From Kutzneria sp. (GTDB lineage: Bacteria > Actinomycetota > Actinomycetes > Mycobacteriales > Pseudonocardiaceae), in contig JAFAZC010000190.1 in assembly GCA_019239965.1 (NCBI GenBank), positions 1-64,000 of the forward strand: a DNA stretch of 64,000 nucleotides, in the 5' to 3' direction. The notes under the pieces were generated by a model. That model was not told the DNA's origin. It searched no databases and saw only the letters and a list, made by a program, of their open reading frames with translations. The position numbers were made by a program, and so were the translations under genes. Positions 18,887 to 40,512 of this stretch are shown piece after piece; position 1 is the stretch's first letter; each line of letters begins with the position of its first letter.

Positions 18887-19099
18887 TTGCTCGACGAGAC
18901 CCCGTCCACCGCCGAGTTCGCGGTGGTGGTGAACGACGAGGACCAGTGGTCGATCTGGCCCGCGCACCGCACGGTGCCCGCGGGTTGGACGGCGGAGGGA
19001 ACCGTCGGTTCCCGCGGCGAGTGCATTGAACACATCGACGCTTCCTGGACCGACATCCGGTCGCGCAGCGTCCGCGACGCAGGCGGTGTGGACAGGTGA
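18887..19099 (+). CDS. MbtH-like NRPS accessory protein
   Basis: A 70-aa MbtH-family protein, a chaperone-like partner of adenylation domains. The diagnostic tryptophans and spacing are visible in QWSIWP, PAGW and IDASWTDIRS. The start is TTG 18887, 7 nt after GAAAGGAG (18872-18879); the longer frame upstream has no homology. The stop overlaps the start of the first NRPS gene (GTGA at 19096), so the two are translationally coupled. It probably serves that A domain and perhaps others, including the split one. Confidence 0.93.
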   Translation: MLDETPSTAEFAVVVNDEDQWSIWPAHRTVPAGWTAEGTVGSRGECIEHIDASWTDIRSRSVRDAGGVDR

Positions 19100-21405
19100 C
19101 CATCCAGTCCTCCGCCACCGACGCCGGGATCGACCCGGCCGGAGCCGGCGCTGTCGAGACGCTCGCAGCGCTTGTCGTGGCGCTGCACCGGCGGTCGCTT
19201 GACGAGCGCGTGGTGCTCGACTTGCACCTCGGTGACCGCTCGGGGATCGAGATCGTCGACGTGCCGAACACCGGCACGTTCGCCGGGCTGTGCGGCCGAC
19301 TGCGTGCGCATGGCGGCGACTCGGTGTCCGGTGATACCCCCGAGCCCGCGGTCCGTGTCGTCCTGCCCGGCACCACGCCCGCCCCGTCCACCTGTCCGGT
19401 CGCCGAGCTGCTCCCCAATGGTGACGGCATTCGTGTCCACGCCGGCGATCCGGCGGAGGGCTGGGACGCCGCCGAGGCCGACCTGCTCGCCGACCTCGTC
19501 GGCCGGGTGCTTGCCGCGGGTCGGGAGAATCCGCGGGTCCCGGTCACGCGGCTACGGCTCACCCGGCCCGGGGAACCCGCGTTCTGGGGAACCCCGGACG
19601 CCCCGGTGCCAGTCGAACGGCTGGAGACGCTGATCGCCAGGCACGCCGCACAGCGCCCGGACAGCCCGGCGGTGAGCTGCGGTGATGTCCGGATCAGCTA
19701 CCGGGAGCTTGACGAGCGCGCGACCGCGGGCGCCGAGGCGCTGCGCCGGGAGGGCGTCGGCCCGGACGAGGTGGTCGGACTGTTCGCCGAGCGTTCGGCG
19801 GAGCGGATCGTCGCCCTGCTCGCGATCCTCAAGGCCGGTGCGGCCTACCTCGCACTGAACCCGGATGACCCGACCTCGCGCCTGGCTGTTCAGCTGCGCG
19901 ACGCACGGGTGCGGCTCGTGGCCGCCGAGCCCGCGTTCACCGACGCCGTTCCCGGAGGCGTCGCGACGCTCCCGCTCGACGCGCTCGCCCCGCCCGCGGG
20001 CACCGCGACCGGTTCGCCGACACCCGTGGCCGCGGGCCCGGACCACCTGGCCTACGTCTGCTACACGTCCGGTTCGACGGGCGTGCCCAAGGGTGTCGGC
20101 GTGCCGCACCGTGCCGTCGCACGCCTGGTGCGCCAGCCGAACTGGGTGGATCCGCGCCCGGACGACGTGTTCCTCCAGCTGTCCCCGCTCTCGTTCGACG
20201 CGGCGACCGTCGAGATCTTCTCCGCACTGGTGAACGGTGGGCACCTGGTCGTGCTGCCGCCCGGCCGGGTGGAGCCGGACCGCCTGCGGCAGGCCGTGCG
20301 GGAGGCGGGCGTCACCGTGCTGCTGCTGCCGACCGGCCTGCTGCACTACACGATCGAGGCCAAGCCCGACACGTTCGCCGGCGTGCGGCACGTGCTGACC
20401 GGCGGCGACGTGGCGTCGGCGTCACTTGTGCGGCAGCTGTTCGCGAGCCACCCCGGCATGCTCTTCACCAACGGCTACGGCCCGACGGAGAACACCTCCT
20501 ACACGACGTGCTGGACGTCGGACGTACCGCCGGTCACGGCGAACGTGCCGATCGGTGACCCCGTCAGCGGCACGTCGGTCGCGGTGCTCGACGAGGACCT
20601 GCACGGGGTCCCGGCGGGTGTGTGCGGGCAGCTGTACGCCGCCGGAGACGGCCTGGCTCGCGGCTACCTCTCCAGTGCGGGCGCCACGGCCGACCGGTTC
20701 ATGCCGCACCCAGACGTGCCGGGGGCTCGCATGTACCGCACCGGCGACCTCGTCCGGCGGGCCGCCGACGGCACCGTCGTATTCGTCGGCCGCGCCGACG
20801 ACCAGGTCAAGGTCAACGGCTATCGGGTCGAACCGGGGGAGATCGAGGACGTGCTGCTGCGCCAGCCCGAGGTCGCGCAGGCCGCGGTCACGGTGCAGCG
20901 GAACAAGAACGGCGCGGCGTCGCTGATCGCCTACGCCGCGCCGGCATCCGCGGACGCCGACCCGATGCTCGGCGCACGGCTGCGCGACCGCCTGCGTGCA
21001 GAGCTGCCCGCCTACATGATCCCGACGGCCGTGCTGGTCCGCCCCGGGCTCGCGATCACGCCGAACGGCAAGCTGGACCGGCAAGCACTGCCCGCCGCAC
21101 ACAGGTACCCCCGCAACGTGTGGAACGACTACGTCCCACCGACGAATCCGACCGAGATCGAGTTGGCGGAGACGTGGGGTGCGCTGCTCGGCGTGGAACC
21201 GGTCGGTGTCGAGGACGACTTCTTCGAGCTCGGTGGCCACTCGCTGCTCGCTGCGGAGCTGATGGCCAAGGTGAGCCAGGACATGGGGGTGGAGGTGTCC
21301 GCCCGGACGCTCTACCTCCAGCCCACGGTTGCCGAGATGGCCGCCGCGATCGAGAACGCCGTCTCGGCGAACGGCGACGGCCGGACGGAGGAGGTGTCCG
21401 GGTGA
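19096..21405 (+). CDS. NRPS: A-PCP protein
   Basis: A 769-aa non-ribosomal peptide synthetase. Residues 1-175 form an N-terminal region with no catalytic motif, probably a degenerate condensation-domain tail or docking part. The adenylation domain follows (about 180-660) with A3 YTSGSTGVPKG near 323, A4 SFDAATVE, A5 NGYGPTEN near 460, A7 YRTGDL and A10 PNGKLDR near 656. The carrier domain has its phosphopantetheine Ser at about 716 (ELGGHSLLAA). The pocket residues read by alignment to GrsA are D-A-V-L-L-G-G-S-Y-K, suggesting a hydrophobic amino acid but not a known monomer. With no C domain it may load the first residue. GTG 19096 overlaps mbtH. Confidence 0.92.
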   Translation: MTIQSSATDAGIDPAGAGAVETLAALVVALHRRSLDERVVLDLHLGDRSGIEIVDVPNTGTFAGLCGRLRAHGGDSVSGDTPEPAVRVVLPGTTPAPSTCPVAELLPNGDGIRVHAGDPAEGWDAAEADLLADLVGRVLAAGRENPRVPVTRLRLTRPGEPAFWGTPDAPVPVERLETLIARHAAQRPDSPAVSCGDVRISYRELDERATAGAEALRREGVGPDEVVGLFAERSAERIVALLAILKAGAAYLALNPDDPTSRLAVQLRDARVRLVAAEPAFTDAVPGGVATLPLDALAPPAGTATGSPTPVAAGPDHLAYVCYTSGSTGVPKGVGVPHRAVARLVRQPNWVDPRPDDVFLQLSPLSFDAATVEIFSALVNGGHLVVLPPGRVEPDRLRQAVREAGVTVLLLPTGLLHYTIEAKPDTFAGVRHVLTGGDVASASLVRQLFASHPGMLFTNGYGPTENTSYTTCWTSDVPPVTANVPIGDPVSGTSVAVLDEDLHGVPAGVCGQLYAAGDGLARGYLSSAGATADRFMPHPDVPGARMYRTGDLVRRAADGTVVFVGRADDQVKVNGYRVEPGEIEDVLLRQPEVAQAAVTVQRNKNGAASLIAYAAPASADADPMLGARLRDRLRAELPAYMIPTAVLVRPGLAITPNGKLDRQALPAAHRYPRNVWNDYVPPTNPTEIELAETWGALLGVEPVGVEDDFFELGGHSLLAAELMAKVSQDMGVEVSARTLYLQPTVAEMAAAIENAVSANGDGRTEEVSG

Positions 21406-22130
21406 GGGTCACCTCGCGGCGCGGGCGCTGGTTCTTGCGGGAGCCGCGCACCGACGTGTCGGCCAGAGTGTTCTGCCTGCCCTACTCCGGGTGTGGCGCG
21501 ACGATGTACCGGCAGTGGCCTGAGTCGCGCGATGGCGTGGAGTTCTGCGCTGTCCAGCTCCCCGGCCGGGAGAACCGGATGCGCGAGCCCGCGTTCGACA
21601 GCTATGAGCAGCTTGCCGTCGAGCTCGCCGAGGCGCTGCGGCCTCACCTCGACGTCCCGTACGCGCTGTTTGGCCACTGCAGCTCGGCGCTGGCCGCGTT
21701 CGAGACCGCGGCGCGGCTGTGCGAGGCCGGTCCCGCGCCCGCCCGGCTGTACGTGTCTTCGGAGGTGGCCCCGCAGGACGGTCCGTACGGCTACTTCCTC
21801 GGGCTCGACGACGAGGGACTGTCGCGTGAGCTGGCCGACCTGCTCGTCGGCATGGGGGCGGAGCCGCATCCCGGGCTGATCGAGCTCACGCTCGGCGTGC
21901 TGCGCCACGACGTCGACGTCAACAAGCGTTATGTGAAGCCGGATCCGCCCCGGCTGTCGTGTCCGATCACGTCGATCGGGTGGAAGGACGACAGCGGGGT
22001 CGAGCCGCGGCTGATGGACGGCTGGTCGCGCTGCGGTGAGACCGAGACGGTGCTGCTCGACGGCGGGCACTACGAGTTCGTCGGGGCGCCGGAGGAATTG
22101 ATGGACGTGCTGGTTCGGGGAGTCCGATGA
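21402..22130 (+). CDS. type II thioesterase with cysteine in the nucleophile elbow
   Basis: A 242-aa alpha/beta-hydrolase of the discrete NRPS thioesterase family (FCLPYSG, VQLPGREN, then GGHYEF with the catalytic His). The nucleophile elbow that normally reads GHSMG is GHCSS here, putting Cys93 in the catalytic position. Most type II thioesterases use Ser and release misprimed carriers. Cys-nucleophile thioesterases are known among product-releasing domains, such as the beta-lactone-forming ObiF TE of obafluorin. It lies in the NRPS operon with 4-bp overlaps on both sides. A second, canonical type II thioesterase is present at 28398, so this one may have a different task. Confidence 0.87.
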   Translation: MRVTSRRGRWFLREPRTDVSARVFCLPYSGCGATMYRQWPESRDGVEFCAVQLPGRENRMREPAFDSYEQLAVELAEALRPHLDVPYALFGHCSSALAAFETAARLCEAGPAPARLYVSSEVAPQDGPYGYFLGLDDEGLSRELADLLVGMGAEPHPGLIELTLGVLRHDVDVNKRYVKPDPPRLSCPITSIGWKDDSGVEPRLMDGWSRCGETETVLLDGGHYEFVGAPEELMDVLVRGVR

Positions 22131-25100
22131 CGGGTGCGTCCGGCAGCCGTCTGTCCGCGGCCAAGCAGCGCTTGCTCGCCGAGCGCCGGGGGAGTGGCGT
22201 GCGTGCGGTCCCCCGGCGGGATCCGGGCATGCTGGTGGAGGCCACGCACCAGCAGCGGGCGCTGTGGTTCCTTGACCGCTACCTGGGTGCCGGCGCGAAC
22301 TCGGCCTACAACCTGCACCACGCTCTGCGGCTGCGCGGTGACCTCGACGCCGGTGTCGTGCAGGACTGTCTGCGGCAGGTCGTGGCCCGGCACGACGCGC
22401 TGCGCACCACGTTCACCGTGGACTCGGACGGCCGGCTACTGCTGCGTGTCGCGCCGCCGCCTCGTCCCGGCACGTTCACGCTGCCGGTCCGTCCGGCCGG
22501 GCCCGACCTGGCCGAGACGGTGCTGGCCGAGGCGTCGATCCCGTTCGATCTCGCCTCGGGCCCGCTCTTCCGGCCCGTGCTGTTCCAGGTAGGCGAGCGC
22601 GACCACGTGCTGCTGCTCACCGCGCACCATACGGTGTTCGATGGCGCGTCGGTCGAGCTGGTCGAGGCCGAGCTGGCCGATCTCCTCACGGGGCGCGAGC
22701 CCGCGGTGCCGCCCATCGGCTTCGCGGACTGGGCGGCCTACACCCATGGTGAGGAACACCGCGCCGCCGTCGCGCGGCGGCTCGAGGCCGCCGTCGCGCG
22801 ACTGTCCGGCGCGCCGGAGCTGCTCGACTTGCCGACCGACCGGCCGCGTGGCGTGGAGCTGTCCACTGGGGGCGACACGGTGTCGGTCCGTCTCGACGCG
22901 GCCGTCGCCGCGCGGTTGCGGGAGTTGTGCCGGACCGAGGGCGTCACACTGTTCACCGCCGTTCTGGCCGTCTACCAACTGCTGCTGTCCCGGTGGTCCG
23001 GCCAGGACGACATTTGCGTCGGCATGCCGGTGGCCGGGCGTGGGCGGGCCGAGCTGGCCGGACTTGTCGGGTGCTTCGTCTCGACCGGGGTCGCACGGAC
23101 CAGGGTGGACGGGCGGCTGACGTTCCGCTCGCTGCTGGCCGAGGCCGCCGAGGCCGTGAACTCCGCGCGGGCGGACGCCGACGTCCCGTTCGACCAAGTG
23201 GTCGCGCGGCTGCGTCCGGAGCGGGCGACCGGCTACAACCCTGTGTTCCAGGTGTTCCTGGATGTGGTCACCGATCCCGCCTCCACCGCGGACAGGTGGG
23301 GCGGCGTTGTCGCCGAGCCGCTGCCCCTGCCAGTCCGCGAGGCGAAGTTCGACCTCAGCCTCACCGTGGTCGAGCGTGCGGACGGAATGACCGCCGAGCT
23401 GACCCACCGCACGGACCTGTTCGACACCGCCACCGCCGCGCGCCTGCTCGACCAGTTCGCGGTGCTGCTGGACCAGCTCACCGCACGTCCGAACGTCCCG
23501 ATGGCCGACGTCTCGGCACTGTCCGACGCCGAGCTCGCCCGGTGGCGTGCCGACAGCAGCGGAGATGCGGTCGATGTACTTGATGTCACGCTGCCACAGG
23601 CCCTCGCCGCGGCGACCGCGACGTGGCCGGAGGCGGTCGCCGTCCGCGCCGGGAACGATTCGCTGACCTATACCGAGCTGGACCGGCGCGCCATCGCGTT
23701 AGCCCATCGCCTGGTGGCAACCGGGGCCAAGCCCGGCGCCATCGTGGCGGTCGCCGTGCCGCGGTCACTCGACCTCGCCGTCGCACTCGGCGCGGTGCTG
23801 CGCACGGGTGCGGCGTACCTTCCGCTCGACCTCGACCATCCGGCAGACCGGCTGCGCTTCGTGCTCGGCGACGCCCGCCCGGCGTGCGTCCTGACCACGA
23901 CCGCGTCGGCGCAATCGTTCGCCGGGGCGGACGTCCCGGTCCTGGAGATCGACGGAGCTCTGGACGAGCGGACCGATCAGGAGACGCTGCCCGAGCCTCA
24001 CGTGCTCGACGCCGCGTACGTCATCTACACGTCCGGCTCGACCGGCCGCCCCAAGGGGGTGGCGGTGCCACACCGGGGCATCGTCAACCGTCTGCGGTGG
24101 ATGCAGCATGCATACCGGCTCGTGCCGGGAGAACGGGTGCTGCAGAAGACGCCGACAACGTTCGACGTGTCGGCGTGGGAGCTGTTCTGGCCGCTGATCG
24201 AGGGCGCCACACTCGTGTCCGCCCCGCCCGGCGCACACCGCGACCCCCTGCAGCTGGCGCAACTCGTGGCCCGCGAGCGGATCACGACGATGCACTTCGT
24301 CCCGTCGATGCTGTGGGCGTTCCTGGAAGAGCCGGAGGCCGCACGCACCCGCGAATGCCTGCGCCGCGTGGTATGCAGCGGCGAGGAGCTGCCCGCGGCC
24401 GCGGTGGCTCGCTTCGTCGAGGTGCTGCCAGGTGTCGAGCTGCACAACCTGTACGGCCCGACCGAGGCGTCGGTCGACGTCACCGCGTGGGAGTGCGGGC
24501 CGGACGACACCGCCGCGGCGCCGCCGATCGGGCGTCCGGTGTGGAACACCGGCGCGCGGGTGCTCGATGAACGCCTCGGCCCGGTGCCGGTCGGCGTGGC
24601 CGGGGAGCTCTACCTGTCCGGCGTCCAGCTCGCGTTGGGCTACCACCGGCGGCCGGGCCTGACCGCCGAGCGGTTCCTGCCCGACCCGTGGGGGCCGCCC
24701 GGCAGTCGCATGTACCGCACCGGCGACCTCGCGCGGCGGCGCCCCGACGGGGCGCTCGTCTTCCTTGGTCGCGCCGACCACCAGGTCAAGCTGCACGGCC
24801 AGCGGATCGAACTCGGCGAGATCGAGCAGGTCCTGCGGGAGCACCCGGCGGTCGCCGCCGCGGCGGTCGTGGTCCGCCGCGACCGCCCAGGGGTGGAACA
24901 GCTGGTCGCCTACGTCACCGGCGCCGCTGGCGCGGCCCCGAACGGACCGGACCTGGTCGGACGGATGCGTGCCGTCCTGCCCGCGGTGATGGTGCCGGAG
25001 GAGGTGGTGGTGCTCGCCGCGTTTCCCCTCACGGCCAGCGGCAAGCTGGACCGCAAGGCCCTGCCCGCCCCGGCCGCGACCCTGTCATCGGCCAAGCAGC

Positions 25101-26722
25101 GCCTGCTCGCCGGCCGCCGCGGTCGCGCGGTGGCGCGTGACGCCCGCACCGAGGTCCTGTGCGACCTGGTCGCCCGGCTGCTCGGCCTTGACACGGTCGG
25201 ACCGGACGACGACTTCTTCCGGCTCGGCGGCGACAGCATCGGTTCCATTCGGCTCGTCAGCCTGGCGCGCCGAGCCGGCCTCGGACTCTCCGAGCGGACT
25301 GTGTTCGAGCACCGCACCCCGCGTGCGCTGGCCGCGGCGGCGACCCAGCTCACCCCGGGGACAGGACCGGACTCCGACGACGGCACCGGGGTGGTCCCGC
25401 TCACCCCCATCATGCGCTGGTGGCGGGAGGGCGGTGGCCCGGCCGCCGGGTTCCACCAGTCGGTGCTGCTGGACCTGCCGCCGGGGGCGGGGGAGCCCGC
25501 CCTGCTCGCGTTGCTCGAGGCGCTGGCCGCTCGCCACGATGTGCTTCGGGCCAGACTGGCCGGCGAGGAGCTGATCGTGCCGCCAGTGTCCGAAGTGGAC
25601 GTGGCGCCCTGGTTGACCAAGGCCGACGAGCCGTCGATCGCGCCCGGACACCCCGACCCGGCCCACGGCATGGTCCACGCCGTGTGGTCCGAACCGCTCG
25701 GGCAGCTCCTGCTGGCCGTGCACCACCTCGCCGTGGACGGCGTGTCGTGGCGGGTGTTACTCGACGACATCGCGGCCGGATGGGACGACGCCATTGCCGG
25801 ACGTCCGGTGCGGCTGCCTGGCGTGCCGACCTCGTTCCGGATCTGGGCAAACCGGCTCGCGCGGGAGACACCGACACGGCGTGCCGAGCTGGAGGTGTGG
25901 CAGCGCGTGCTGTCCGCACCCGAACCGGCCATCGGTCGTCCACTGGATCCGGCGACCGACACCGCGGGCAACGCGCGCGAGTTGGTGCACGAGTTCGAAG
26001 CCGGCGCACTGCTCAGCGTTGTACCGGACCGTTTCCGGGCCGGCGCGGACCACGTTCTGTTGTGTGCGCTCGCTTTGGCCGTCCGAGCCTGGCGCGATCG
26101 TCGACGTACGCCGTCGCAGGTCCTCCGGGTGATGGTGGAGGGCCACGGGCGGTACGACTTCGCCGAGTTCGACCTGTCCCGTACGGTCGGCTGGTTCACG
26201 GTGCGATATCCGGTGGCGCTCGACCTGGCCACCGCGGACAACACGGCGTCGGCGTTGAAGACGGTCAAGGAGCAGGTGCGGGCCCTACCGGACGGCGGTC
26301 TCGGCTATGGCCTGCTGCGCCACCTCACCGACCGCACGTTGGCCGCGCTCGACGAGCCACAGGTCGCGTTCAACTACCTGGGCCGGTTCCGGCCCGGTGG
26401 CACGGGCAGCCTCGTCGCGCTGGACGGTGGCATCCCGGACGCCACCCCGCTCGCGGCGGCGCTCGACGTGACCGCGATCGCCTGGGACCAACCGGAAGGT
26501 GTCCGGCTGCGGACGACGTTCACCTGGGCTCCGGACGTCCTGGACGAGTCGGACGTGCGCGTGCTCAGTGAGCTGTGGGTGCAGGCGCTGGCCACGGTGG
26601 CCGCGCTGGCCGACGACCCGGACACCGGCGGGGTGATGGCATCCGACGTCTTCGTCGAGATGGACCAGGACGAGCTGGACGACCTGCGACGGGAACTCGA
26701 GTCGGACCGGGGGCTGCGATGA
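22127..26722 (+). CDS. NRPS: C-A(Ser)-PCP-E
   Basis: A 1531-aa synthetase module. The condensation domain has HHTVFDG (about residue 167). The adenylation domain has A3 YTSGSTGRPKG near 634, A4 TFDVSAWE, A5 NLYGPTEA near 775 and A10 ASGKLDR. The carrier motif is RLGGDSIGS (Ser about 1037), the DS form usual before an epimerase. The C-terminal domain is an epimerisation domain with HHLAVDG (about 1199), EGHGRY (about 1338), RTVGWFT and NYLGRF. The pocket code by GrsA alignment is D-V-W-H-V-S-L-V-D-K, close to the known serine code DVWHLSLIDK, so the module should add Ser and convert it to D-Ser. It carries an unusual repeated linker AAKQRLLAERRG / AKQRLLAGRRG at its N-terminus and before the carrier. 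ATG 22127 overlaps the upstream stop. Confidence 0.94.
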   Translation: MTGASGSRLSAAKQRLLAERRGSGVRAVPRRDPGMLVEATHQQRALWFLDRYLGAGANSAYNLHHALRLRGDLDAGVVQDCLRQVVARHDALRTTFTVDSDGRLLLRVAPPPRPGTFTLPVRPAGPDLAETVLAEASIPFDLASGPLFRPVLFQVGERDHVLLLTAHHTVFDGASVELVEAELADLLTGREPAVPPIGFADWAAYTHGEEHRAAVARRLEAAVARLSGAPELLDLPTDRPRGVELSTGGDTVSVRLDAAVAARLRELCRTEGVTLFTAVLAVYQLLLSRWSGQDDICVGMPVAGRGRAELAGLVGCFVSTGVARTRVDGRLTFRSLLAEAAEAVNSARADADVPFDQVVARLRPERATGYNPVFQVFLDVVTDPASTADRWGGVVAEPLPLPVREAKFDLSLTVVERADGMTAELTHRTDLFDTATAARLLDQFAVLLDQLTARPNVPMADVSALSDAELARWRADSSGDAVDVLDVTLPQALAAATATWPEAVAVRAGNDSLTYTELDRRAIALAHRLVATGAKPGAIVAVAVPRSLDLAVALGAVLRTGAAYLPLDLDHPADRLRFVLGDARPACVLTTTASAQSFAGADVPVLEIDGALDERTDQETLPEPHVLDAAYVIYTSGSTGRPKGVAVPHRGIVNRLRWMQHAYRLVPGERVLQKTPTTFDVSAWELFWPLIEGATLVSAPPGAHRDPLQLAQLVARERITTMHFVPSMLWAFLEEPEAARTRECLRRVVCSGEELPAAAVARFVEVLPGVELHNLYGPTEASVDVTAWECGPDDTAAAPPIGRPVWNTGARVLDERLGPVPVGVAGELYLSGVQLALGYHRRPGLTAERFLPDPWGPPGSRMYRTGDLARRRPDGALVFLGRADHQVKLHGQRIELGEIEQVLREHPAVAAAAVVVRRDRPGVEQLVAYVTGAAGAAPNGPDLVGRMRAVLPAVMVPEEVVVLAAFPLTASGKLDRKALPAPAATLSSAKQRLLAGRRGRAVARDARTEVLCDLVARLLGLDTVGPDDDFFRLGGDSIGSIRLVSLARRAGLGLSERTVFEHRTPRALAAAATQLTPGTGPDSDDGTGVVPLTPIMRWWREGGGPAAGFHQSVLLDLPPGAGEPALLALLEALAARHDVLRARLAGEELIVPPVSEVDVAPWLTKADEPSIAPGHPDPAHGMVHAVWSEPLGQLLLAVHHLAVDGVSWRVLLDDIAAGWDDAIAGRPVRLPGVPTSFRIWANRLARETPTRRAELEVWQRVLSAPEPAIGRPLDPATDTAGNARELVHEFEAGALLSVVPDRFRAGADHVLLCALALAVRAWRDRRRTPSQVLRVMVEGHGRYDFAEFDLSRTVGWFTVRYPVALDLATADNTASALKTVKEQVRALPDGGLGYGLLRHLTDRTLAALDEPQVAFNYLGRFRPGGTGSLVALDGGIPDATPLAAALDVTAIAWDQPEGVRLRTTFTWAPDVLDESDVRVLSELWVQALATVAALADDPDTGGVMASDVFVEMDQDELDDLRRELESDRGLR

Positions 26723-28401
26723 GCGCGCGAACCCATCCGTTGTCGCTTGGCCAGCGGAGCATGTGGAACCTCGACCGCCTCAGCGACGGCGGCCCGGTGC
26801 ACACGCTGGCATGGCGGGTGCCGTTGCACGGTGCGCTCGACGAGAGCGCGATGCGCGACGCGTTCGCGGCCGTGACCGCCCGCCACGAGCCGCTGCGGAC
26901 CTGGTTCACCGAGGACGACGGCGGGCCCGTCGCGATCGTCGAGGACACCGTCGAAGTGCCGCTGCCCGTCGACGACCTGCGGCAGCTGCCCGCGGCGGAG
27001 CGTGCCGAGGAAGCCGCTCGGCGCTGCGTCGACGACGTCGGGGTGGGCTTCGCGCTCGGCCGCGCACCGCTGCTGCGGGTCCGCCTGCTGCGTCTGGACG
27101 AAGACCGCCACGACCTGCTCATCGTCGTGCACCACATCGTGTTCGACGGGATGTCGTTCGACCTTCTCCTCGACGATCTCGGCAAGGCCTACGGCAAAGG
27201 CGAACTCGGTGCCCTGGACGTGCGCTACGCCGACGCCGTGGCCGAGGAGCGGGAGCTGCTCACCGGTCCACGCCGCACCGCGCCAGCGGTGTTCTGGCGC
27301 GAGCGCCTCGCCGGTGCGCCGCCAGTGCTGCTGCCTCCACCGGACCGGGAGCCCGGCGGGGAGCGGTCGTGGGTCAGCCGGGTGCACACACAGGCGCTGC
27401 CGGGAGCCGCCGTGCGCGAGTTCGCGCGCCGCGAGCGCTGCACCCCGTATGTCGTGTACCTCGCCGTGCTGAACGTCCTGCTGTCCCGGCTCACCGGCTC
27501 GTCCGACATCGTCGTCGGCACTCCGGTGTCCGGCCGCCACCGCAGCGCGTTCGAGCAGCTCGTCGGCTACTTCGTGAACACGGTGGTGGTACGGAACGAG
27601 GTCGGCGGCCAGTCGTTCCGTGACCTGGTGCGCGAGGTGCGCGGGGCCGTGTTCGACGCGTTGGACCACCAACGGCTGCCGTTCGAGGCGGTGGTCGAGG
27701 AGGTCCGCCCGTCCCGCACCAGCGGCTACAGTCCCCTGTTCCAGGTGTTGTTCTCCCAGGTCGACGCCACCCGTCCGCGCGACGACGGCTTCGTGGGCCT
27801 GTCCGTTGGCGCCATCGAGCCGGTGGACAACGGACGCTCACCGTTCCCACTGACGTTCAGCGTGCTTGACGGCGCTGAGCTGCTGCTCGAGTACGCACCC
27901 GCGCTGTACGACGAGACGACGGCCGAGCGGATGGCCGAGCAGTTCGCCACGCTACTGTCCGCCGCCCTGGCCGCACCGGAGACCGCGGTCGGTGAACTGG
28001 CCGCCTTCGTGCCCGCACCCGCGCCCGTCGCCCCGGACAGTCCCACCGTGGCAGCCGCCCCGGGACAAGGCGATGACGTCGTGGTTCGCGCTGTGCGGGC
28101 GGTGTGGAGCGCGCACCTGCATACCGAGGTCACCGACCCGGACGCGGACTTCGTCGGCCTTGGCGGGCATTCCCTTGTCGCCGCGCGGATCGCGATTGAA
28201 CTGCGCGAACTGTTCGGCCTGGAGTCCGGTCTGACCGAGCACACGGTGTTCCTCGCGCCAACGCCCCGCCTGCTAGCCGGCCACCTCGCCGCGGCACTGG
28301 GCGGCTGGGCGACCGCGGCCGCCGAGGCCGAGTTCGTCCTGCGACTGCTGACCATGACCGACGAGCAGGCCGAGGAGCAGCTCGCACGGGAGGAGCCGTG
28401 A
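26719..28401 (+). CDS. NRPS: C-PCP protein without adenylation domain
   Basis: A 560-aa protein with a complete condensation domain (HHIVFDG near residue 138; GTPVSGRHR; GYFVNTVVVR) followed directly by a carrier domain (GLGGHSLVAAR, Ser about 485). The A domain is absent, not broken: the linker passes from the end of C to the carrier in about 40 residues. The carrier must be loaded in trans by another A domain or receive an intermediate by transfer. ATG 26719 overlaps the preceding stop as ATGA. Candidates for trans loading are the A-PCP protein, the split A domain, or the ATP-grasp ligase and free carrier. Confidence 0.93.
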   Translation: MSARTHPLSLGQRSMWNLDRLSDGGPVHTLAWRVPLHGALDESAMRDAFAAVTARHEPLRTWFTEDDGGPVAIVEDTVEVPLPVDDLRQLPAAERAEEAARRCVDDVGVGFALGRAPLLRVRLLRLDEDRHDLLIVVHHIVFDGMSFDLLLDDLGKAYGKGELGALDVRYADAVAEERELLTGPRRTAPAVFWRERLAGAPPVLLPPPDREPGGERSWVSRVHTQALPGAAVREFARRERCTPYVVYLAVLNVLLSRLTGSSDIVVGTPVSGRHRSAFEQLVGYFVNTVVVRNEVGGQSFRDLVREVRGAVFDALDHQRLPFEAVVEEVRPSRTSGYSPLFQVLFSQVDATRPRDDGFVGLSVGAIEPVDNGRSPFPLTFSVLDGAELLLEYAPALYDETTAERMAEQFATLLSAALAAPETAVGELAAFVPAPAPVAPDSPTVAAAPGQGDDVVVRAVRAVWSAHLHTEVTDPDADFVGLGGHSLVAARIAIELRELFGLESGLTEHTVFLAPTPRLLAGHLAAALGGWATAAAEAEFVLRLLTMTDEQAEEQLAREEP

Positions 28402-30296: not shown

Positions 30297-30548
30297 ATGA
30301 CTGAGACGGGAACCAACAGCGGCGCCGACGTCGGCGAGACTGTGACGCTGATCTGGCGGGAGGTCCTCGCGGTCCCCGTCGACGAGAACTCGGACTTCTT
30401 TGAGTCAGGCGGGCACAGCGTTGCCGTGCTGCAGATTATCAACCGCATCCAGGAGTGCTACGGCACCGAACTGTCGGTGCGCGACGTCTTCGAGAACTCG
30501 GTGCTCGGCGACTTCATCGGCGTCGTGCGGACTCGGGTGAACGGGTGA
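30297..30548 (+). CDS. free-standing peptidyl carrier protein
   Basis: An 83-aa acyl/peptidyl carrier protein with the phosphopantetheine site FFESGGHSVAV. Helix II (SVAVLQIINRIQE) and the rest of the fold are typical. ATG 30297 lies 4 bp after the aminotransferase stop with GAGG just upstream, and the stop overlaps the ATP-grasp start. A discrete carrier beside an ATP-grasp ligase and a half A domain suggests that one building block is tethered or modified on this protein before entry to the line. Confidence 0.93.
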   Translation: MTETGTNSGADVGETVTLIWREVLAVPVDENSDFFESGGHSVAVLQIINRIQECYGTELSVRDVFENSVLGDFIGVVRTRVNG

Positions 30549-31843
30549 GCGACATGCGCCCCCGCCTACTGCTGCTCTACGCCCCCGGCGCGCTCGGGCC
30601 GGTCGACCTGCTGCGTAGCCTGCGGTCCGTGGTGGACCTCGTTGTCGCGGTGCCCGAACGGTTCCGAGACGATCCCGGCGTGGCCATGCTGCGCCACTTC
30701 GTCGATCCGGTGATCTTCGACCCGCGGGGCGACGTGCCGGACGCCTCCGGCTGCGACGGCGTGATCTCCTACACCGATCTGCTGGCCCGCACCGCGGCTG
30801 AGATCGCGTGCCGGCACGGCCTTCCGGGCCAATCGCCCGAGGCGGCGCTCGCGTTGACCGACAAGGAGGTTCAGCGCCGGGTGCTCGCCGAGCACGGGGT
30901 CGATGCGCTGCGCGCGGCCACGCTGCACCGGCCGCGGGACTGGGAGCCCGCCGTGGCGCGGGTCGGCCTGCCCGCGGTGCTCAAACCGCGCAGCGGCGGG
31001 GGCAGTCGCAACACCTACCGGATCGACGACGCCGCCACCGGTGCCCGGCTGGTCCACCGGCTGCTCGGTCCCGCGGAGAACGCGATGGTGCTGGAGCAGC
31101 TGCTGGTCGGTGTGGACCAGGGGCGTCATGGTGACTACTGCTCGGTGGAGAGCGTCACCTCCGGCGGCATCACCACGCACCTACCGGTGCTGTCGAAGTT
31201 CCGGCTTGTCGAACCGTTCCGTGAGACCGGTCAGTTCTGGCCGAGCCACCTCGACGAGGCCACCCAGCAACGGGCCCGTGAGGTCACGACGGCCGCACTG
31301 CGCGCGATCGGATTCCGCGACGGCCTGTCCAGCACCGAGCTGAAGCTGACCCCGGACGGACCGCGAGTGATCGAGGTCAACAGCCGCCTCGGCGGGTTCG
31401 TCAACGAGATGTCCGTGCACTCCGGCGGGCCGGATCTGGTCGCCGCCGCCGCCCGCGTGGCGCTGGGCGAGCGGCCCGACATCGAGTTCGAGCACGGCGT
31501 ACGGCCGGTGTTCCAGTTCAACCATCTCGCGCCACAGGACGCGGTGGCGCTGCTGGGCGTCGAAGGGCTCGACGCGGTGCGGGCCCTCGACGGTGTCCTC
31601 GCGCACCGCCTGCTGATCGCGCCCGGCGCCGCCATGACACCCGGTGTGCAGACGCAGGAGCTGGACATGCTCAACGCCACCGCGGCCGACCACGACGAGA
31701 TGTACGCGCTGATCGAAGCGGTGTCGGCCCGGCTGACATTCGGGTTCCGCCTGCGCGACGCGGACGGGCCCGAGGTGTGGCTACCCGCCGCCGAGTTGCC
31801 GAGTGCGGCCTCGACCGCGGTCCCGGTGGGAGGATCCCCATGA
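30545..31843 (+). CDS. ATP-grasp ligase (carboxylate-amine ligase type)
   Basis: A 432-aa ATP-grasp protein. The nucleotide-binding lysine segment is LPAVLKPRSGGGS, and the metal-binding Glu/Asn are in STELKLTPDG and VIEVNSRLGG. The overall pattern is that of BacD-like L-amino acid ligases and related carboxylate-amine ligases, which activate a carboxylate as acyl-phosphate and join it to an amine. GTG 30545 overlaps the carrier-protein stop (ATG 30554 is the alternative). It could form an amide bond outside the NRPS line, for example a dipeptide or a side-chain amide. Acceptor and donor are unknown. Confidence 0.88.
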   Translation: MSDMRPRLLLLYAPGALGPVDLLRSLRSVVDLVVAVPERFRDDPGVAMLRHFVDPVIFDPRGDVPDASGCDGVISYTDLLARTAAEIACRHGLPGQSPEAALALTDKEVQRRVLAEHGVDALRAATLHRPRDWEPAVARVGLPAVLKPRSGGGSRNTYRIDDAATGARLVHRLLGPAENAMVLEQLLVGVDQGRHGDYCSVESVTSGGITTHLPVLSKFRLVEPFRETGQFWPSHLDEATQQRAREVTTAALRAIGFRDGLSSTELKLTPDGPRVIEVNSRLGGFVNEMSVHSGGPDLVAAAARVALGERPDIEFEHGVRPVFQFNHLAPQDAVALLGVEGLDAVRALDGVLAHRLLIAPGAAMTPGVQTQELDMLNATAADHDEMYALIEAVSARLTFGFRLRDADGPEVWLPAAELPSAASTAVPVGGSP

Positions 31844-32781
31844 CACTCGACACGGTGGCCGCCCGGTTCGCTCGGACTGCCCGGCTGCATCCGGACCACG
31901 AGGCACTGGTCAGCGCCGCCGGCCGGTGGAGCTACGGCGAGTTGAGCGCCGACGTCAACCGCGTTGCCCGATTCCTCGCCGGGCGTGGGGTCGGCCGGGA
32001 GGTCCACGTCGGCGTGCTGCTTCCGCGCGGCTATGAGCTGGTCGTGTCGATGATGGCCATCCTCACCGTCGGCGGCGTCTACGTCCCGCTCAACCCGTCC
32101 CTGCCGGACGCCCGGCTGCTCGACCTGGTCGATGTCACCCAGCCGCCGGTGATCCTCACCGACGCCGGCCGGTCGCTGCGCGGCGACGCCGCTGAGCACC
32201 GGGACATCGCAGCCGTGCTGCGCGACGGCGACCCGGCGCAAGTGGCCGACCGACACCATCCCCGTGCCGCCGCCTACGTCATCCAGACCTCCGGATCCAC
32301 CGGACGCCCGAAGTGTGTGCAGGTCGAGATGGGCTCGCTTGTCAACCTCCTGGACTGGTGCGCGGGCGCATGCGGGATCGAGCACGGCGAGCGAGTGCTG
32401 CAGGTGATCGCGTCCAGCTTCGACGCGTCCATCCGCAGCTACCTGACCCCGCTGGTCACCGGCGCCACGCTCGTCCTCTACGACGATGGCCCGTTCGACC
32501 CCGTCACACTCACGGACTGGCTCGGCAGGGAGCGGATCACCGTGTTCAACCCGTCGGTGCCCTCGATGTTCTACCCGGTCGTCGAGCTGGCGGCGGCAGA
32601 GGACTACCGCTGCCTGGAGTCGTTGCACACGCTCGCGCTCGGCGCGGAAACACCGGACATGGCCCTGCTGCGGCCCTGGCTCGACTCGCCACACTGCCGA
32701 GCCCGCGTGCAGAACGTCTACGGCCCGACCGAGGCCGCCGACATCTCCCTGTACGCCGAGCTGGACACGAGCCGCCGATGA
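31840..32781 (+). CDS. N-terminal half of a split NRPS adenylation domain (A1-A5)
   Basis: A 313-aa protein that is only the front part of an adenylation domain. It has A1 WSYGEL, A2 LTVGGVYVPLNP, A3 QTSGSTGRPKC, A4 SSFDASIRSY and A5 NVYGPTEA, and then stops 13 residues after A5. Motifs A6-A10 are missing, so it cannot be a working enzyme alone. They occur in the C-PCP-TE protein at 33479, whose A part begins at PIGRPIPNA, exactly where this one ends. All substrate-pocket positions except the A10 lysine are on this half and read D-A-R-N-A-G-V-D-I. A3 is atypical (QT for YT, PKC for PKG). Both gene ends are cleanly coupled to neighbours (ATGA overlaps), which argues against random decay. Function as one half of a two-chain A domain is inference. 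Confidence 0.9.
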   Translation: MTLDTVAARFARTARLHPDHEALVSAAGRWSYGELSADVNRVARFLAGRGVGREVHVGVLLPRGYELVVSMMAILTVGGVYVPLNPSLPDARLLDLVDVTQPPVILTDAGRSLRGDAAEHRDIAAVLRDGDPAQVADRHHPRAAAYVIQTSGSTGRPKCVQVEMGSLVNLLDWCAGACGIEHGERVLQVIASSFDASIRSYLTPLVTGATLVLYDDGPFDPVTLTDWLGRERITVFNPSVPSMFYPVVELAAAEDYRCLESLHTLALGAETPDMALLRPWLDSPHCRARVQNVYGPTEAADISLYAELDTSRR

Positions 32782-33482
32782 GCACGGCCTTGATCACTGT
32801 GCCGATGCGGTACACCGGGCCACCTGGGCAGGCGCACGGCGGCTACCTCGCGGGCCTGCTCGTGGACCACGTCGGCGATGCCACGGTGACGCTGCTCGAA
32901 CCGGTACCCACCGGAGTACCGCTCACGCTGGAGCGCGACCCACGCCGCGACCGCCTCTATGCCAACGGTGAGCTGGTCGCGACGGCGACCCATCGTGTGC
33001 CCCCGATGGTCCGCGTGCCACCGGTCGGTGCGCAGGAGGCTATGGCCGCGCAGGAGCGGTTTGCTGGATGTGCCGCGCATCCGTTCCCGAGCTGTTTCGT
33101 CTGCGGCACCGACGAGAAACGTCCGCTCTCGCTGGACATCGCACCCGGTCCGGTGGGCGGTCTCGTGGCCTGCACCTGGACCCCGGACCCGGTCTTGGCC
33201 TCGGAGGACGGCGTAGTGCCACCGGCGATCGTCCGCGCGGTGCTGGACTGTCCGGGCGGCTGGACACTCGACCCGGTCGCCGAGCCGATGGTGCTCTCGA
33301 CGTTCGCCGCCAAGGTGGCCATGGTCCGCGCCGGCGAGCGCCACGTCGTGGTGGCCGTCGCCGAGAGGCGCCATGGCCGGATGGCAGTCGTGCACACGAC
33401 CATGTACGGCTCGGACGGGCGTTGGACCGGCGGCGCGCGTGCCACCTGGCTCGCCGTCGACGCGGGCGGCCGCGGTGAGTGA
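32778..33482 (+). CDS. hotdog-fold thioesterase-like protein
   Basis: A 234-aa protein resembling actinobacterial tandem hotdog proteins. The hallmark is FPSCFVCG followed about 45 residues later by PAIVRAVLDCPGGW. The N-terminal part (PGQAHGGYLAGLLVDHV) and the C-terminal part look like two hotdog halves. The fold includes acyl-CoA thioesterases and dehydratases; here no catalytic assignment is possible. It lies between the two halves of the split adenylation domain, with 4-bp overlaps to both (ATGA at 32778; GTGA at 33479). It could hydrolyse a carrier- or CoA-bound intermediate. Confidence 0.7.
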   Translation: MSTALITVPMRYTGPPGQAHGGYLAGLLVDHVGDATVTLLEPVPTGVPLTLERDPRRDRLYANGELVATATHRVPPMVRVPPVGAQEAMAAQERFAGCAAHPFPSCFVCGTDEKRPLSLDIAPGPVGGLVACTWTPDPVLASEDGVVPPAIVRAVLDCPGGWTLDPVAEPMVLSTFAAKVAMVRAGERHVVVAVAERRHGRMAVVHTTMYGSDGRWTGGARATWLAVDAGGRGE

Positions 33483-36400
33483 GGAGTGAGGCGTCGGTGA
33501 GCACATCGAAGATCGAGGACGTCCTCCCGCTGACACCGTTGCAGCAGGGCATGCTGTTTCACTCCGAGCTCAGCCAGGGCGAGGAGGACGTCTACACCGT
33601 GCAGCTCGAGGTGGTGCTGGACGGCCCGCTGCGCGCTGAGGATCTGTGGGCGGCTGCGGCCGCGCTGCTGGAGCGCCACACCACGCTGCGCGTCGCGTTC
33701 CGCCGCCGCCGCAACGGCGACCCGGTGCAGGTCGTGATGAGTGAGGTGCGCTTGCCCCGCCGCGAGGTCGACCTGTCCGACCGGCCGGGGGACGCGGCGG
33801 AGGTGGCCGCCGCCGACCGCGCGGAACCGTTCGACCTCACGCGACCTCCGGCGCTCCGGCTCACCCTGCTGCGCCTGGGCCAGGAACGGCACACGCTGCT
33901 CGTGACGAGCCACCACATCCTGCTCGACGGCTGGTCGATGCCGCTGCTCGTGCGGGAGCTGACCGCACTGCACGCGGTGTACGCCGACGGCGGAGCGCCC
34001 TCGGCCGCGGACGCCGTGCGCCGCGCCGGGCTGCCCCCGGTCACACCGTACCGGGACTACCTGCGCTGGCTCGGGTCGCTCGACGATGATGCCGCGGCCA
34101 CCCTGTGGACCGAGGAGCTGGCCGGGCTCGACGAGCCGACATACCTGGTCCCGATCGAGCACGGGCAGCCGCGACCTGTGCACCTGCGCACCACGCTGCC
34201 GTTCGGCGCCCGCCTGAAAGCCACCGCCCGCGAGCACGGCCTCACCGTCAACACCGTGCTCCAGGTGGCGTGGGCGGTCGTGCTCGGCCGCCTCACCCGC
34301 CGTGACGACGTGGCGTTCGGCGCCACCGTGTCCGTGCGTCCGCCGGAGCTGGCCGGGGCCGACCGGATGCTGGGACTGTTCATCAACACCCTGCCGGTAC
34401 GGGTACGGCTGCGCGAGGACGCGTCATTGCTGGACACCGCCATCGCTTTGCAGCGACGGTGGGTAGTGTTGCGTGAGCACGGCCACTTCGGCCTGTCCGA
34501 GCTGCGGCGGGTCACCGGCGTTGGCGAGGTGTTCGACACGCTGGTGGTGTTCCAGAACTTCCCGACCGCGGGCGACGGTGACCAGTCGACCGGGGACGTG
34601 AAGGTCATCGACGTCACCGGTCACGACGCGACGCACTACCCGGTCAGCCTTGTCGTCGACGCGTCCGACGAGATCACACTGCAGCTCACCCGGCGGGACG
34701 GAGCCATCGTCCCTGGCGGACCGGACGAGCTGCTGGCCAGGGTGAGCCGGGTGCTGGAGGCGTTCGCCGACGATCCGCGCCGCACGCTGGGCGGTCTTGA
34801 CCTGCTCTCGCCCGCCGAGCGCGACCTGCTGCTCGGCGAGTGGATCCACACCGGCCTCGGCCGCTCCCCGGTCGCGCCCGGCAGCCTGCCACCGATCGGA
34901 CGCCCGATCCCGAACGCACGCGCCTACGTGCTCGGCCCAGGCCTGCACCTCATGCCGCCCGGCGTGACGGGGGAGGTCTACCTGGCCGGTGTCGGGATCG
35001 CCCGCGGCTACCTCGGCCAGCCCGCGCTGACCGCGGAGCGGTTCCTGCCCGACCCGTTCGGCGAGCCGGGCAGCCGCATGTACCGCACCGGCGACCTCGG
35101 GCGCTGGCGCGGGGACGGGCAGATCGAGTACCTGGGTCGGGTCGACCACCAGGTAAAGATCAACGGGTTCCGTGTCGAGCCCGCCGAAGTGGAGGCGCAG
35201 TTGATCGCCCGGGCCGACGTGCGCCGTGCTGTCGTCGTGGTGCGCGAGGACGTCCCTGGGGTGCGGAGCCTGGTCGCCTACGTCGTCGCCGCACCGGGAG
35301 CACGGGCGTCGACCGCGGACTTGCTTGCCGGCCTGCGCGAACGGCTGCCGAACTATCTGGTGCCGGATGCTGTCGTGTGGCTGGACACCATTCCGACCAA
35401 CGCCCATGACAAGGTGGACCGCGCGGCATTGCCGGCACCGGAACACCAGCGGCGGGCTCCGACGGCCGGGCCGCGCACCGACGCGGAACGGAGAGTTCTC
35501 GCGCTGGTGAGCGAGATTCTCGGCCGCGCCGACGTGGCAGTGGAGGACAACCTGTTCGCGCTGGGCTGCGACTCGCTCGCGGCGGCTCGGCTGGTCAGCC
35601 GCATTCGGACGGACACCGGCCACACAGTCGGGGTCCGCACGCTGTACGCCACCCCGACGGTGGCTGGGCTGGCGGCGGCGCTGGACGGCGCCGGCTCGGG
35701 CGCGCGGGCGCCCTCCGGGCTCGAGGTCCTCCTTCCGCTGGCCAGCGGGGGCGAGGGGCCGCCGGTGTTCTGCGTCCATCCCGGCAGCGGCCTGGGATGG
35801 GCCTACGCCGCGCTGACCCGCTGGGTGGACGACCGGCCCGTGTACGCGCTGCAGGCAAGGAGCCTGACCCAGCCGGACGAGGCGGCCACTTCGGTGGACG
35901 CGATGGCCGGCCACTACCTCGACGTGGTGCGCGAGATCCAGCCGGACGGCCCGTACCACCTGGTCGGATGGTCGTTCGGCGGAGTCGTGGCACACGCGAT
36001 GGCCGCCCGCCTCGCGACGGAGAACCGGTCGGTACGCCTGCTCGCGGTGCTCGACTCGTTCCCGATCCGGCGGTGGACGACGCTGAGCGACGACGACATC
36101 CGTCGCGGCGCGCTGGACGGACTCGGCCTGCCCGCGGACGCGGTGGCGGACGGTGACCTCACCGTCGAACTCGTGGTCGCGGCGGCACGCCGGATCGGGA
36201 ACGTCCTCGCCGACCTGGACCACGCAACCGTTTCCGCGCTGATCCGCACCGCCGTCCACCACGTGCACCTGATGGATGCCCATCGGGCGCCGCACGTCTC
36301 CGGTGATCTGCTGGCGTTCGAGGCCACCGTGCGGACCTCGCCGCTGCCGGACCTCTCGGCGGAGTGGGCGCCACTGGTCGGCGGCACGGTCGACGTGCGC

Positions 36401-36487
36401 CAGGTGGCCGTGCGGCACGAGGACATGCTTGGTCCGGAAGCGCTGGCGGTGATCGGTCCGGAGCTGCGGCGACGCCTGCGAGGCTGA
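33479..36487 (+). CDS. NRPS: C-(A6-A10 half of A)-PCP-TE, terminal module
   Basis: A 1002-aa terminal synthetase. The condensation domain (1-450) begins LPLTPLQQGMLFHSEL, has HHILLDG near 145 and resembles the type following an epimerase. Residues about 470-650 hold only the back of an A domain: GRPIPNARAYVL, A6 VYLAGVGIARGYL, A7 YRTGDL, A8 GRVDHQVKINGFRVEP, A9 LPNYLVP and A10 with the catalytic-type lysine in HDKVDR. The roughly 270 residues containing A1-A5 are absent and are encoded at 31840. The carrier has an unusual LGCDS (Ser about 699). The type I thioesterase has GWSFGG (Ser about 832) and RHEDM, and would release the peptide. GTG 33479 gives the same 4-bp overlap as its neighbours; GTG 33497 behind GAGGAG is the alternative. 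Confidence 0.93.
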   Translation: MRSEASVSTSKIEDVLPLTPLQQGMLFHSELSQGEEDVYTVQLEVVLDGPLRAEDLWAAAAALLERHTTLRVAFRRRRNGDPVQVVMSEVRLPRREVDLSDRPGDAAEVAAADRAEPFDLTRPPALRLTLLRLGQERHTLLVTSHHILLDGWSMPLLVRELTALHAVYADGGAPSAADAVRRAGLPPVTPYRDYLRWLGSLDDDAAATLWTEELAGLDEPTYLVPIEHGQPRPVHLRTTLPFGARLKATAREHGLTVNTVLQVAWAVVLGRLTRRDDVAFGATVSVRPPELAGADRMLGLFINTLPVRVRLREDASLLDTAIALQRRWVVLREHGHFGLSELRRVTGVGEVFDTLVVFQNFPTAGDGDQSTGDVKVIDVTGHDATHYPVSLVVDASDEITLQLTRRDGAIVPGGPDELLARVSRVLEAFADDPRRTLGGLDLLSPAERDLLLGEWIHTGLGRSPVAPGSLPPIGRPIPNARAYVLGPGLHLMPPGVTGEVYLAGVGIARGYLGQPALTAERFLPDPFGEPGSRMYRTGDLGRWRGDGQIEYLGRVDHQVKINGFRVEPAEVEAQLIARADVRRAVVVVREDVPGVRSLVAYVVAAPGARASTADLLAGLRERLPNYLVPDAVVWLDTIPTNAHDKVDRAALPAPEHQRRAPTAGPRTDAERRVLALVSEILGRADVAVEDNLFALGCDSLAAARLVSRIRTDTGHTVGVRTLYATPTVAGLAAALDGAGSGARAPSGLEVLLPLASGGEGPPVFCVHPGSGLGWAYAALTRWVDDRPVYALQARSLTQPDEAATSVDAMAGHYLDVVREIQPDGPYHLVGWSFGGVVAHAMAARLATENRSVRLLAVLDSFPIRRWTTLSDDDIRRGALDGLGLPADAVADGDLTVELVVAAARRIGNVLADLDHATVSALIRTAVHHVHLMDAHRAPHVSGDLLAFEATVRTSPLPDLSAEWAPLVGGTVDVRQVAVRHEDMLGPEALAVIGPELRRRLRG

Positions 36488-38947: not shown

Positions 38948-40048
38948 CTAGCTGAATTGGCCAAGGAAACGAAGGTCGGCGGAGTGCATGAGGCGGACGT
39001 CGTCAATGCCGTATCGCATCATGGCCAGCCGGTCGAGCCCGACGTTGACGTAGAAGCCGGTCCACTCGTCCGGGTCCAGGCCGCCCGCGTGAAGGACATT
39101 CGGGTGCGGGCTGCCGCCGGGCATGATCTCCAGCCATCCAACACCGTGACATGTTCGGCACCCCTGCCCGCCACACACCTGGCACTGCATGTCGATCTCG
39201 AACCCGGGCTCGACGAACGGGAAGAACCCAGTCCGCATGCGGGTTGGCACGTGTTTGCCGAAGACGGTGTCGAGAATGGTGCTGACCAGGAACTTTCCCA
39301 GGGTCAGCGGGACGTGCCTGTCGACGATGAGGACCTCGTACTGGAAGAAGGCGCGCTCGTGGCGGGCGTCGGTGCTCTCGTTGCGGTACACCCGACCCGG
39401 GTAGACGAATCGAAACGGAGGCTGGTTCTCCAGCATGAAACGGACGCTCGCACCGGTCAGGTGGGGCCGCAGGCACAGGCGTTCCGCGCCGGATTTTGCG
39501 TGGCTGGACGTCAACCAGTAGGTGTCCATGCTCTCGCGGGCAGGGTGTTCTGGTGGGAAGTTTAGGTTGTCGAATTCGAAGAGCTCCGAAGAGATCTCCG
39601 GTCCTTCGTAGATCTGGAAGTTCAACGCGGCGAAAGCGTCGTTCAGGTCGTACATGAGTTGTACCGTCGGATGCAGACCCCCAGTGGGGACTGGGATGCC
39701 CGGCAGTGTGACGTCCAGTGGGCGGGCCAGTACCGGCTCTGAGTCCAGCAGCTCCCGCTCTCGGCGGGTGAGGGCCTGTTCGACGTCGCGCTGTGCCGCC
39801 GCCACGGCCGCGCCGACCTGCTTGCGTTGCTCTCCGGGCAGCGACCCGATGGCGCGACGGACCTGGAGGAGCGTGCCCGATCGGCCGAGGACCTCCCGGC
39901 GCGCCGCGTCGAGCTCGTCCATGGTCCGCGCCGCAGCACAGGCCGCCAGGGACCGCTCACGGATCGACGCTATGTGTTCAAGCAGCTCAGCGCCCTCGTC
40001 CGTGCTGCCCATCTGTCCCCACATCTCTCTCGCGTGTCTGGTGTCCAT
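38948..40048 (-). CDS. pheS: phenylalanyl-tRNA synthetase alpha chain, divergent type
   Basis: A 366-aa PheRS alpha subunit. It has the coiled-coil N-terminus, motif 2 region (FVYPGRVYRNESTDARHERAFFQYE), the zinc-type cysteine cluster CQVCGGQGCRTCHGVGW and the C-terminal NVGLDRLAMMRYGIDDVRL. The ending resembles the ERIAMLKYGI form of non-actinobacterial PheS, not the ERTLMFRHG-like form of most actinobacteria. In the motif 3 area the usual GMG is VNVG, and the segment before it reads LEIMPGGSPHPNV where most have a GCGMV/GAGMV pattern. These lie around the Phe pocket and fit an altered inhibitor response. It is divergent from the ribonucleotide reductase operon. ATG 40048 is used; ATG 40012 is possible. 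Confidence 0.9.
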   Translation of the reverse strand: MDTRHAREMWGQMGSTDEGAELLEHIASIRERSLAACAAARTMDELDAARREVLGRSGTLLQVRRAIGSLPGEQRKQVGAAVAAAQRDVEQALTRRERELLDSEPVLARPLDVTLPGIPVPTGGLHPTVQLMYDLNDAFAALNFQIYEGPEISSELFEFDNLNFPPEHPARESMDTYWLTSSHAKSGAERLCLRPHLTGASVRFMLENQPPFRFVYPGRVYRNESTDARHERAFFQYEVLIVDRHVPLTLGKFLVSTILDTVFGKHVPTRMRTGFFPFVEPGFEIDMQCQVCGGQGCRTCHGVGWLEIMPGGSPHPNVLHAGGLDPDEWTGFYVNVGLDRLAMMRYGIDDVRLMHSADLRFLGQFS

Positions 40049-40412: not shown

Positions 40413-40512
40413 TGTCCGCGGCCCCGAGGGAGGGCGAGAGGACAGGGCGGTCGTGCGTGCCCGTCGCTCCTCGCTGCTCTCCATGGCCACCGAGCTCGCG
40501 AGGAGAGAGCCT

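Follow-up and report, generated by a model that had tools for sequence, protein, structure and literature searches.

An NRPS adenylation (A) domain of Kutzneria sp. is divided between two polypeptides, and sequence comparison identifies the two pieces as the halves of a genuine, conserved two-chain A domain. The first half, A_N, is a stand-alone protein of 313 residues (31840..32781, + strand) with motifs A1-A5, including the substrate pocket, the P-loop and YGPTE. The second half, A_C, carries A6, A7, the A8 hinge, A9 and the A10 lysine within a protein of 1002 residues (33479..36487, + strand) that lacks A1-A5 and has the order C-A_C-PCP-TE. The most likely reading, given that a second, diverged cluster keeps the same cut, is that the two halves come together in trans at the A5/A6 loop and probably make up a working A domain. 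Coordinates refer to the window, that is, the whole stretch of 64,000 nucleotides that was analysed (contig JAFAZC010000190.1 of assembly GCA_019239965.1, positions 1 to 64,000), which belongs to a draft genome of 4.7 Mb in 208 contigs.

Anatomy of the divided domain and its gene cluster

The cut lies in the variable A5/A6 loop, after A5 (NVYGPTEA) and just before PIGRPI, with the C-terminus of A_N placed 13 residues past NVYGPTEA. In the larger protein, sequence and domain matches place the condensation (C) domain (33515..34834, + strand; PF00668, residues 13-452), with its HHxxxDG motif intact, in direct fusion with the A6 half. This is followed, on the same strand, by A_C itself (34877..35443; residues 467-655), a PCP with its serine in LGCDSL (35489..35683; PF00550, residues 671-735) and a terminal thioesterase (TE) with the motif GWSFGG (35762..36433; PF00975, residues 762-985).

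The two chains occupy complementary stretches of every A-domain profile applied. A_N covers positions 1-328 of the 384 in PF00501 and the larger protein 340-384; for TIGR01733 the corresponding ranges are 1-283 and 292-409. On a custom A-domain profile of 495 positions, an HMM built from A domains of the loci examined, A_N spans 2-304 and A_C 307-495, so that they do not overlap and leave about 2 positions uncovered between them. The larger protein also matches the Pfam models Condensation, AMP-binding_C, PP-binding and Thioesterase. When both chains are counted, all NRPS motifs A1-A10 are present and PF00501/PF13193 and TIGR01733 are covered nearly end to end, each open reading frame being incomplete alone. 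Pfam places no methyltransferase or other inserted domain in either half, which distinguishes the arrangement from an interrupted single-chain A domain. The earlier note had proposed a division into A1-A5 and A6-A10 across two proteins with 4-bp overlaps at the gene borders. Its coordinates and reading frames hold, and the starts at 31840, 32778 and 33479 each overlap the preceding stop by 4 bp (ATGA, ATGA and GTGA, respectively).

Structure prediction is consistent with an intact fold for the pocket half. The A_N model, built from 12 sequences, has a mean pLDDT of 87.4 and a pTM of 0.88, and matches NRPS A domains in the PDB along its full length, with a TM-score of about 0.8-0.9 by query length. 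The A_C-PCP fragment, modelled alone from a 3-sequence alignment, has a pLDDT below 50 in its first ~97 residues, the A6-A7 part, and this model is given no weight here.

The NRPS gene cluster extends over approximately 14.6-36.5 kb of the window on the + strand. It encodes an MbtH-like protein with a TTG start (18887..19099, + strand), assigned to its family from sequence; an A-PCP protein whose A domain is complete (19096..21405, + strand; profile positions 2-493); and a C-A-PCP protein, its A domain likewise complete, that carries a second condensation-type domain read as an epimerase (22127..26722, + strand). A C-PCP protein without an A domain follows (26719..28401, + strand), and an ATP-grasp ligase-like gene (30455..31843, + strand) overlaps A_N by 4 bp. 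Directly downstream of the cluster, on the - strand, lie genes recognised from their sequence as phenylalanyl-tRNA synthetase beta and alpha (36521-38938 and 38948-40048). A second PheS-like gene with 36% identity in the same genome (C66:5013-5996) raises the possibility that the downstream pair is a copy for self-resistance; the loci of the genome with the homologous cluster described below gave no match to PheST. Genes for the large and small subunits of ribonucleotide reductase are also near the cluster (40453-43865), and a distant second large-subunit match (29%) occurs elsewhere in the genome.

A gene for a 234-residue protein (32778..33482, + strand), given the label hotdog in the earlier note, stands between A_N and the C-A_C-PCP-TE gene; the protein has no Pfam or NCBIfam match. 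Its homologs in three other genomes (L101, L102 and L103) are located directly before genes for an A-PCP, a P450 and a type II thioesterase (TEII), and six more short loci (L036, L039, L042-L044 and L046) have an A domain adjoining such a homolog. From these gene neighbourhoods, the homolog, A-PCP, P450 and TEII look like a conserved cassette that makes a modified amino acid, and the A-PCP protein at 19096..21405 is part of such a cassette in the window. Because homologs elsewhere flank the A-PCP/P450/TEII genes, and because the copy in the second split cluster adjoins an A-PCP gene (locus L075) away from the split pair, the intervening protein probably belongs to the cassette rather than to the split, with its position in the window being incidental.

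The same cut in a second genome

Among 390 genomes of the family, one other stand-alone A_N was found, bringing the count to 2/390. This gene (G764:C4:3560286-3561197) lies in genome G764 in an open frame of 342 aa and encodes a protein of 328 aa that is ~52-53% identical to A_N. The second protein of G764 reads '...DWLDGAPRPRVPFAGPAPIGRPIPGDRVYVLG...' and aligns contiguously to residues 10-845 of the 33479-36487 protein, across the C-to-A6 junction, with ~45% protein identity. On the custom A-domain profile, the G764 halves span 3-306 and 308-494.

The surrounding G764 cluster (loci L075, L079 and L080) is homologous to that of the window. It comprises MbtH (53% identity), A-PCP, two P450s, a type II thioesterase, the C-A-PCP protein with its second condensation-type domain (70%), the C-PCP protein (67%), an aminotransferase (82%) and the ATP-grasp protein (73%). 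Each of the two clusters holds an MbtH protein and one orphan A_N together with one orphan A_C, beside complete A domains. In G764, the split genes stand in the opposite order to that in the window, with a NodU-type gene between them. The earlier note had considered that homologous clusters with a complete A domain would point to a rearrangement private to this strain; the sole homologous cluster found has the same split.

These observations bear on whether an assembly or sequencing artefact has parted the two ends of one A domain. The draft state of the genome, in 208 contigs, leaves some room for such an error, but the same cut in an independent genome with another gene order makes both an assembly error and a one-strain break very unlikely, and the 4-bp overlaps on both sides also argue against it. 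We regard an artefact as extremely improbable.

Wider comparisons listed no additional examples at comparable similarity, although rarer or more distant ones may exist beyond the matches listed. No further stand-alone A_N at similar identity was among the matches listed from 396 genomes of the phylum and 395 genomes of the family of G489, and no other contiguous C-to-A6 protein was among those listed for the 33479-36487 protein against 395 genomes of the class. In the contigs of the source genome, the AMP-binding relatives of A_N were all distant. Hits in G027, G032 and G022 that seemed to run unbroken from C to A6, read with G054 and G005, proved to be complete A domains whose ends the alignments had overrun, and three single-piece junction matches on plasmids corresponded to two ordinary A domains and one interrupted domain. 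In locus L105, on a plasmid of Streptomyces sp. KN37, the A-domain match breaks off at guide position 214 and resumes at 221 after ~1.1 kb; the protein is annotated as a MupA/Atu3671 luciferase-like monooxygenase.

Signs of constraint on both halves weigh against the alternative that the A domain is dead, with A_N and A_C as leftovers and the last PCP charged in trans by the complete A domain of 19096..21405 or of 22127..26722. This alternative draws on the presence of those complete A domains, on the C-PCP protein at 26719..28401, already a case in this cluster of a PCP kept with no A domain of its own, and on the known trans loading of A-less modules in SyrB1/SyrE (PMC8949500). Against it, both clusters have kept the two halves whole at a protein identity of 45-52%, the near-invariant residues are retained and pN is lower than pS. 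From 54 intact A domains, 78 near-invariant positions were derived, of which the intact domains themselves keep 71-78. Each pair keeps 72 of the 78: the window has 32/35 in the N half and 40/43 in the C half, and G764 has 31 and 41, respectively. A few positions differ from the consensus in both pairs; one such change, K-G to K-C/S following the P-loop, is shared by the interrupted relatives described below.

Between the window and G764, pN is 0.317 against a pS of 0.481 for A_N, and 0.280 against 0.568 for A_C; the codon method behind these values is crude at such a distance and GC content. Simulated neutral evolution over the observed distance, with substitutions only, left A_N free of stops in 0.85% of runs and A_C in 6.7%. 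A pseudogene would be expected to have lost its frame or its catalytic motifs and not to be conserved in relatives, whereas here the frames are open, the motifs are kept and the split recurs in G764. A dead A domain is therefore considered improbable.

Relatives of the two halves

The closest full-length relatives of A_N are A-PCP-TE proteins (loci L076, L077 and L078) with an A domain interrupted between A2 and A3; L098 is a fourth. The insert in all four comprises ~300 residues and matches a methyltransferase model where scanned. Toward the interrupted domains of L076-L078, the N half of the window is 50-51% identical and that of G764 56-58%, against medians of 32-33% to all A domains. For the C halves the identities are 43-47%, below the medians of 52-56% to all A domains.

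In the N-half tree, the two split halves and the three interrupted domains form a clade with a support of 1.0. In a small tree of 18 rows, the C domain of the larger window protein and that of its G764 counterpart are sisters with a support of 94/97; the A_C halves of the window and G764 group without support. Separate origins of A_N and A_C are hinted at by the identities and the N-half clade, but we do not claim them, as a single clade for the C halves is not rejected by the AU test (p 0.31 in the careful run and 0.87 in the quick one).

In a manual reading by motif, the ten specificity positions are DARPLLVDIK in the window and DAKPLLIDIK in G764 and the interrupted domains. The closeness of these codes suggests that the window A_N, the G764 A_N and the interrupted domains share the same or a similar substrate.

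Assembly in trans and comparison with known systems

In the proposed mechanism, one NRPS A domain would be encoded as two polypeptides, with A_N contributing the part of the N-terminal core that holds the amino-acid pocket and the P-loop. The C-A_C-PCP-TE chain would supply what remains of the core, starting with A6, together with the A8 hinge and the A10 lysine. Binding between the halves would be non-covalent and run across the natural A5/A6 loop, probably with the help of the MbtH protein of the cluster, and the assembled domain would activate the last amino acid and load the PCP of the C-A_C-PCP-TE chain. Assembly in trans appears to be the best explanation for a combination of sequence, modelling and comparative evidence, namely the complementarity of the halves, the shared cut in G764, the kept residues, pN<pS, the sister C domains, the predicted A_N fold, the presence of MbtH and the precedent of an active two-gene A domain in Crz. 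The anatomy, the complementarity, the conserved split and the kept near-invariant residues are observed; the physical association of the halves, its MbtH dependence, catalysis, the PCP that is loaded and the substrate are inferred.

A variant of this mechanism treats A_N as a free specificity subunit with multiple partners, in which the C-PCP protein at 26719..28401 is a further target of the assembled pair. In its favour, a single orphan A half coexists with two PCPs that have no complete A domain in cis, both of them conserved in G764. The C-PCP protein has no A_C of its own, so its loading would need the assembled pair to act in trans, and the A-PCP of the P450/TEII cassette offers another supply for its PCP; we consider the variant unlikely. 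Somewhat more room may be given, tentatively, to a broader proposal, in which the pocket half is a free, exchangeable protein that plugs into the C-PCP-TE chain and possibly into more than one module. Here A_N and A_C may derive from different lineages and constitute a natural two-chain chimera.

The proposed two-chain A domain of A_N and A_C has a close counterpart. The earlier note knew of no described natural split of this kind, a view that needs to be narrowed. In corallorazine biosynthesis, an A domain is likewise distributed over two genes, Crz1 and Crz2; adenylation occurs only when both proteins are mixed, and the authors call theirs the first experimental report (PMC11342130). The Crz1/Crz2 cut falls after A8, near A8/A9, beside an inserted methyltransferase, and the A9-A10 part opens the next protein in order (PMC11342130). 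In contrast, the cut in the window falls at A5/A6 inside the core, no methyltransferase is present, the N half stands on its own as a small protein and the A6 half is fused to a C domain. What stands of the earlier view is the position and the architecture: a cut inside the N-terminal core, in which the pocket half stands alone as a protein of 313 residues and the C domain leads straight into the A6 half, appears to be new. No description of an A5/A6 cut was found in the open-licence papers searched, and the word 'split' does not occur in a 2024 review of NRPS A domains.

Other known arrangements are related in part. Inserts between A2/A3 or A8/A9 of A domains are well known, and the closest full-length relatives of A_N are of the kind represented by TioN and MarQ, with a methyltransferase between A2 and A3 (PMC11355689); these are single chains with an insert, whereas the window has two chains without one. 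SyrB1/SyrE resembles the present case in placing the adenylating function and the PCP on different proteins, but its trans-acting unit is a complete A domain (A-T) (PMC8949500), whereas in the window the A domain itself is divided.

The finding is relevant to the way in which these enzymes change their amino acids, because the chief natural route of such change in NRPSs is reported to be the swapping of parts inside the A core (PMC8097286). Engineers must swap parts of the A core inside giant genes, and the window encodes most of that unit, pocket included, as a protein of 313 residues. If the pair works, annotation tools that call A_N and the last module incomplete would miss a functional module. 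A working pair would also reveal a natural split site that tolerates separation, at which specificity could be changed by swapping one small protein.
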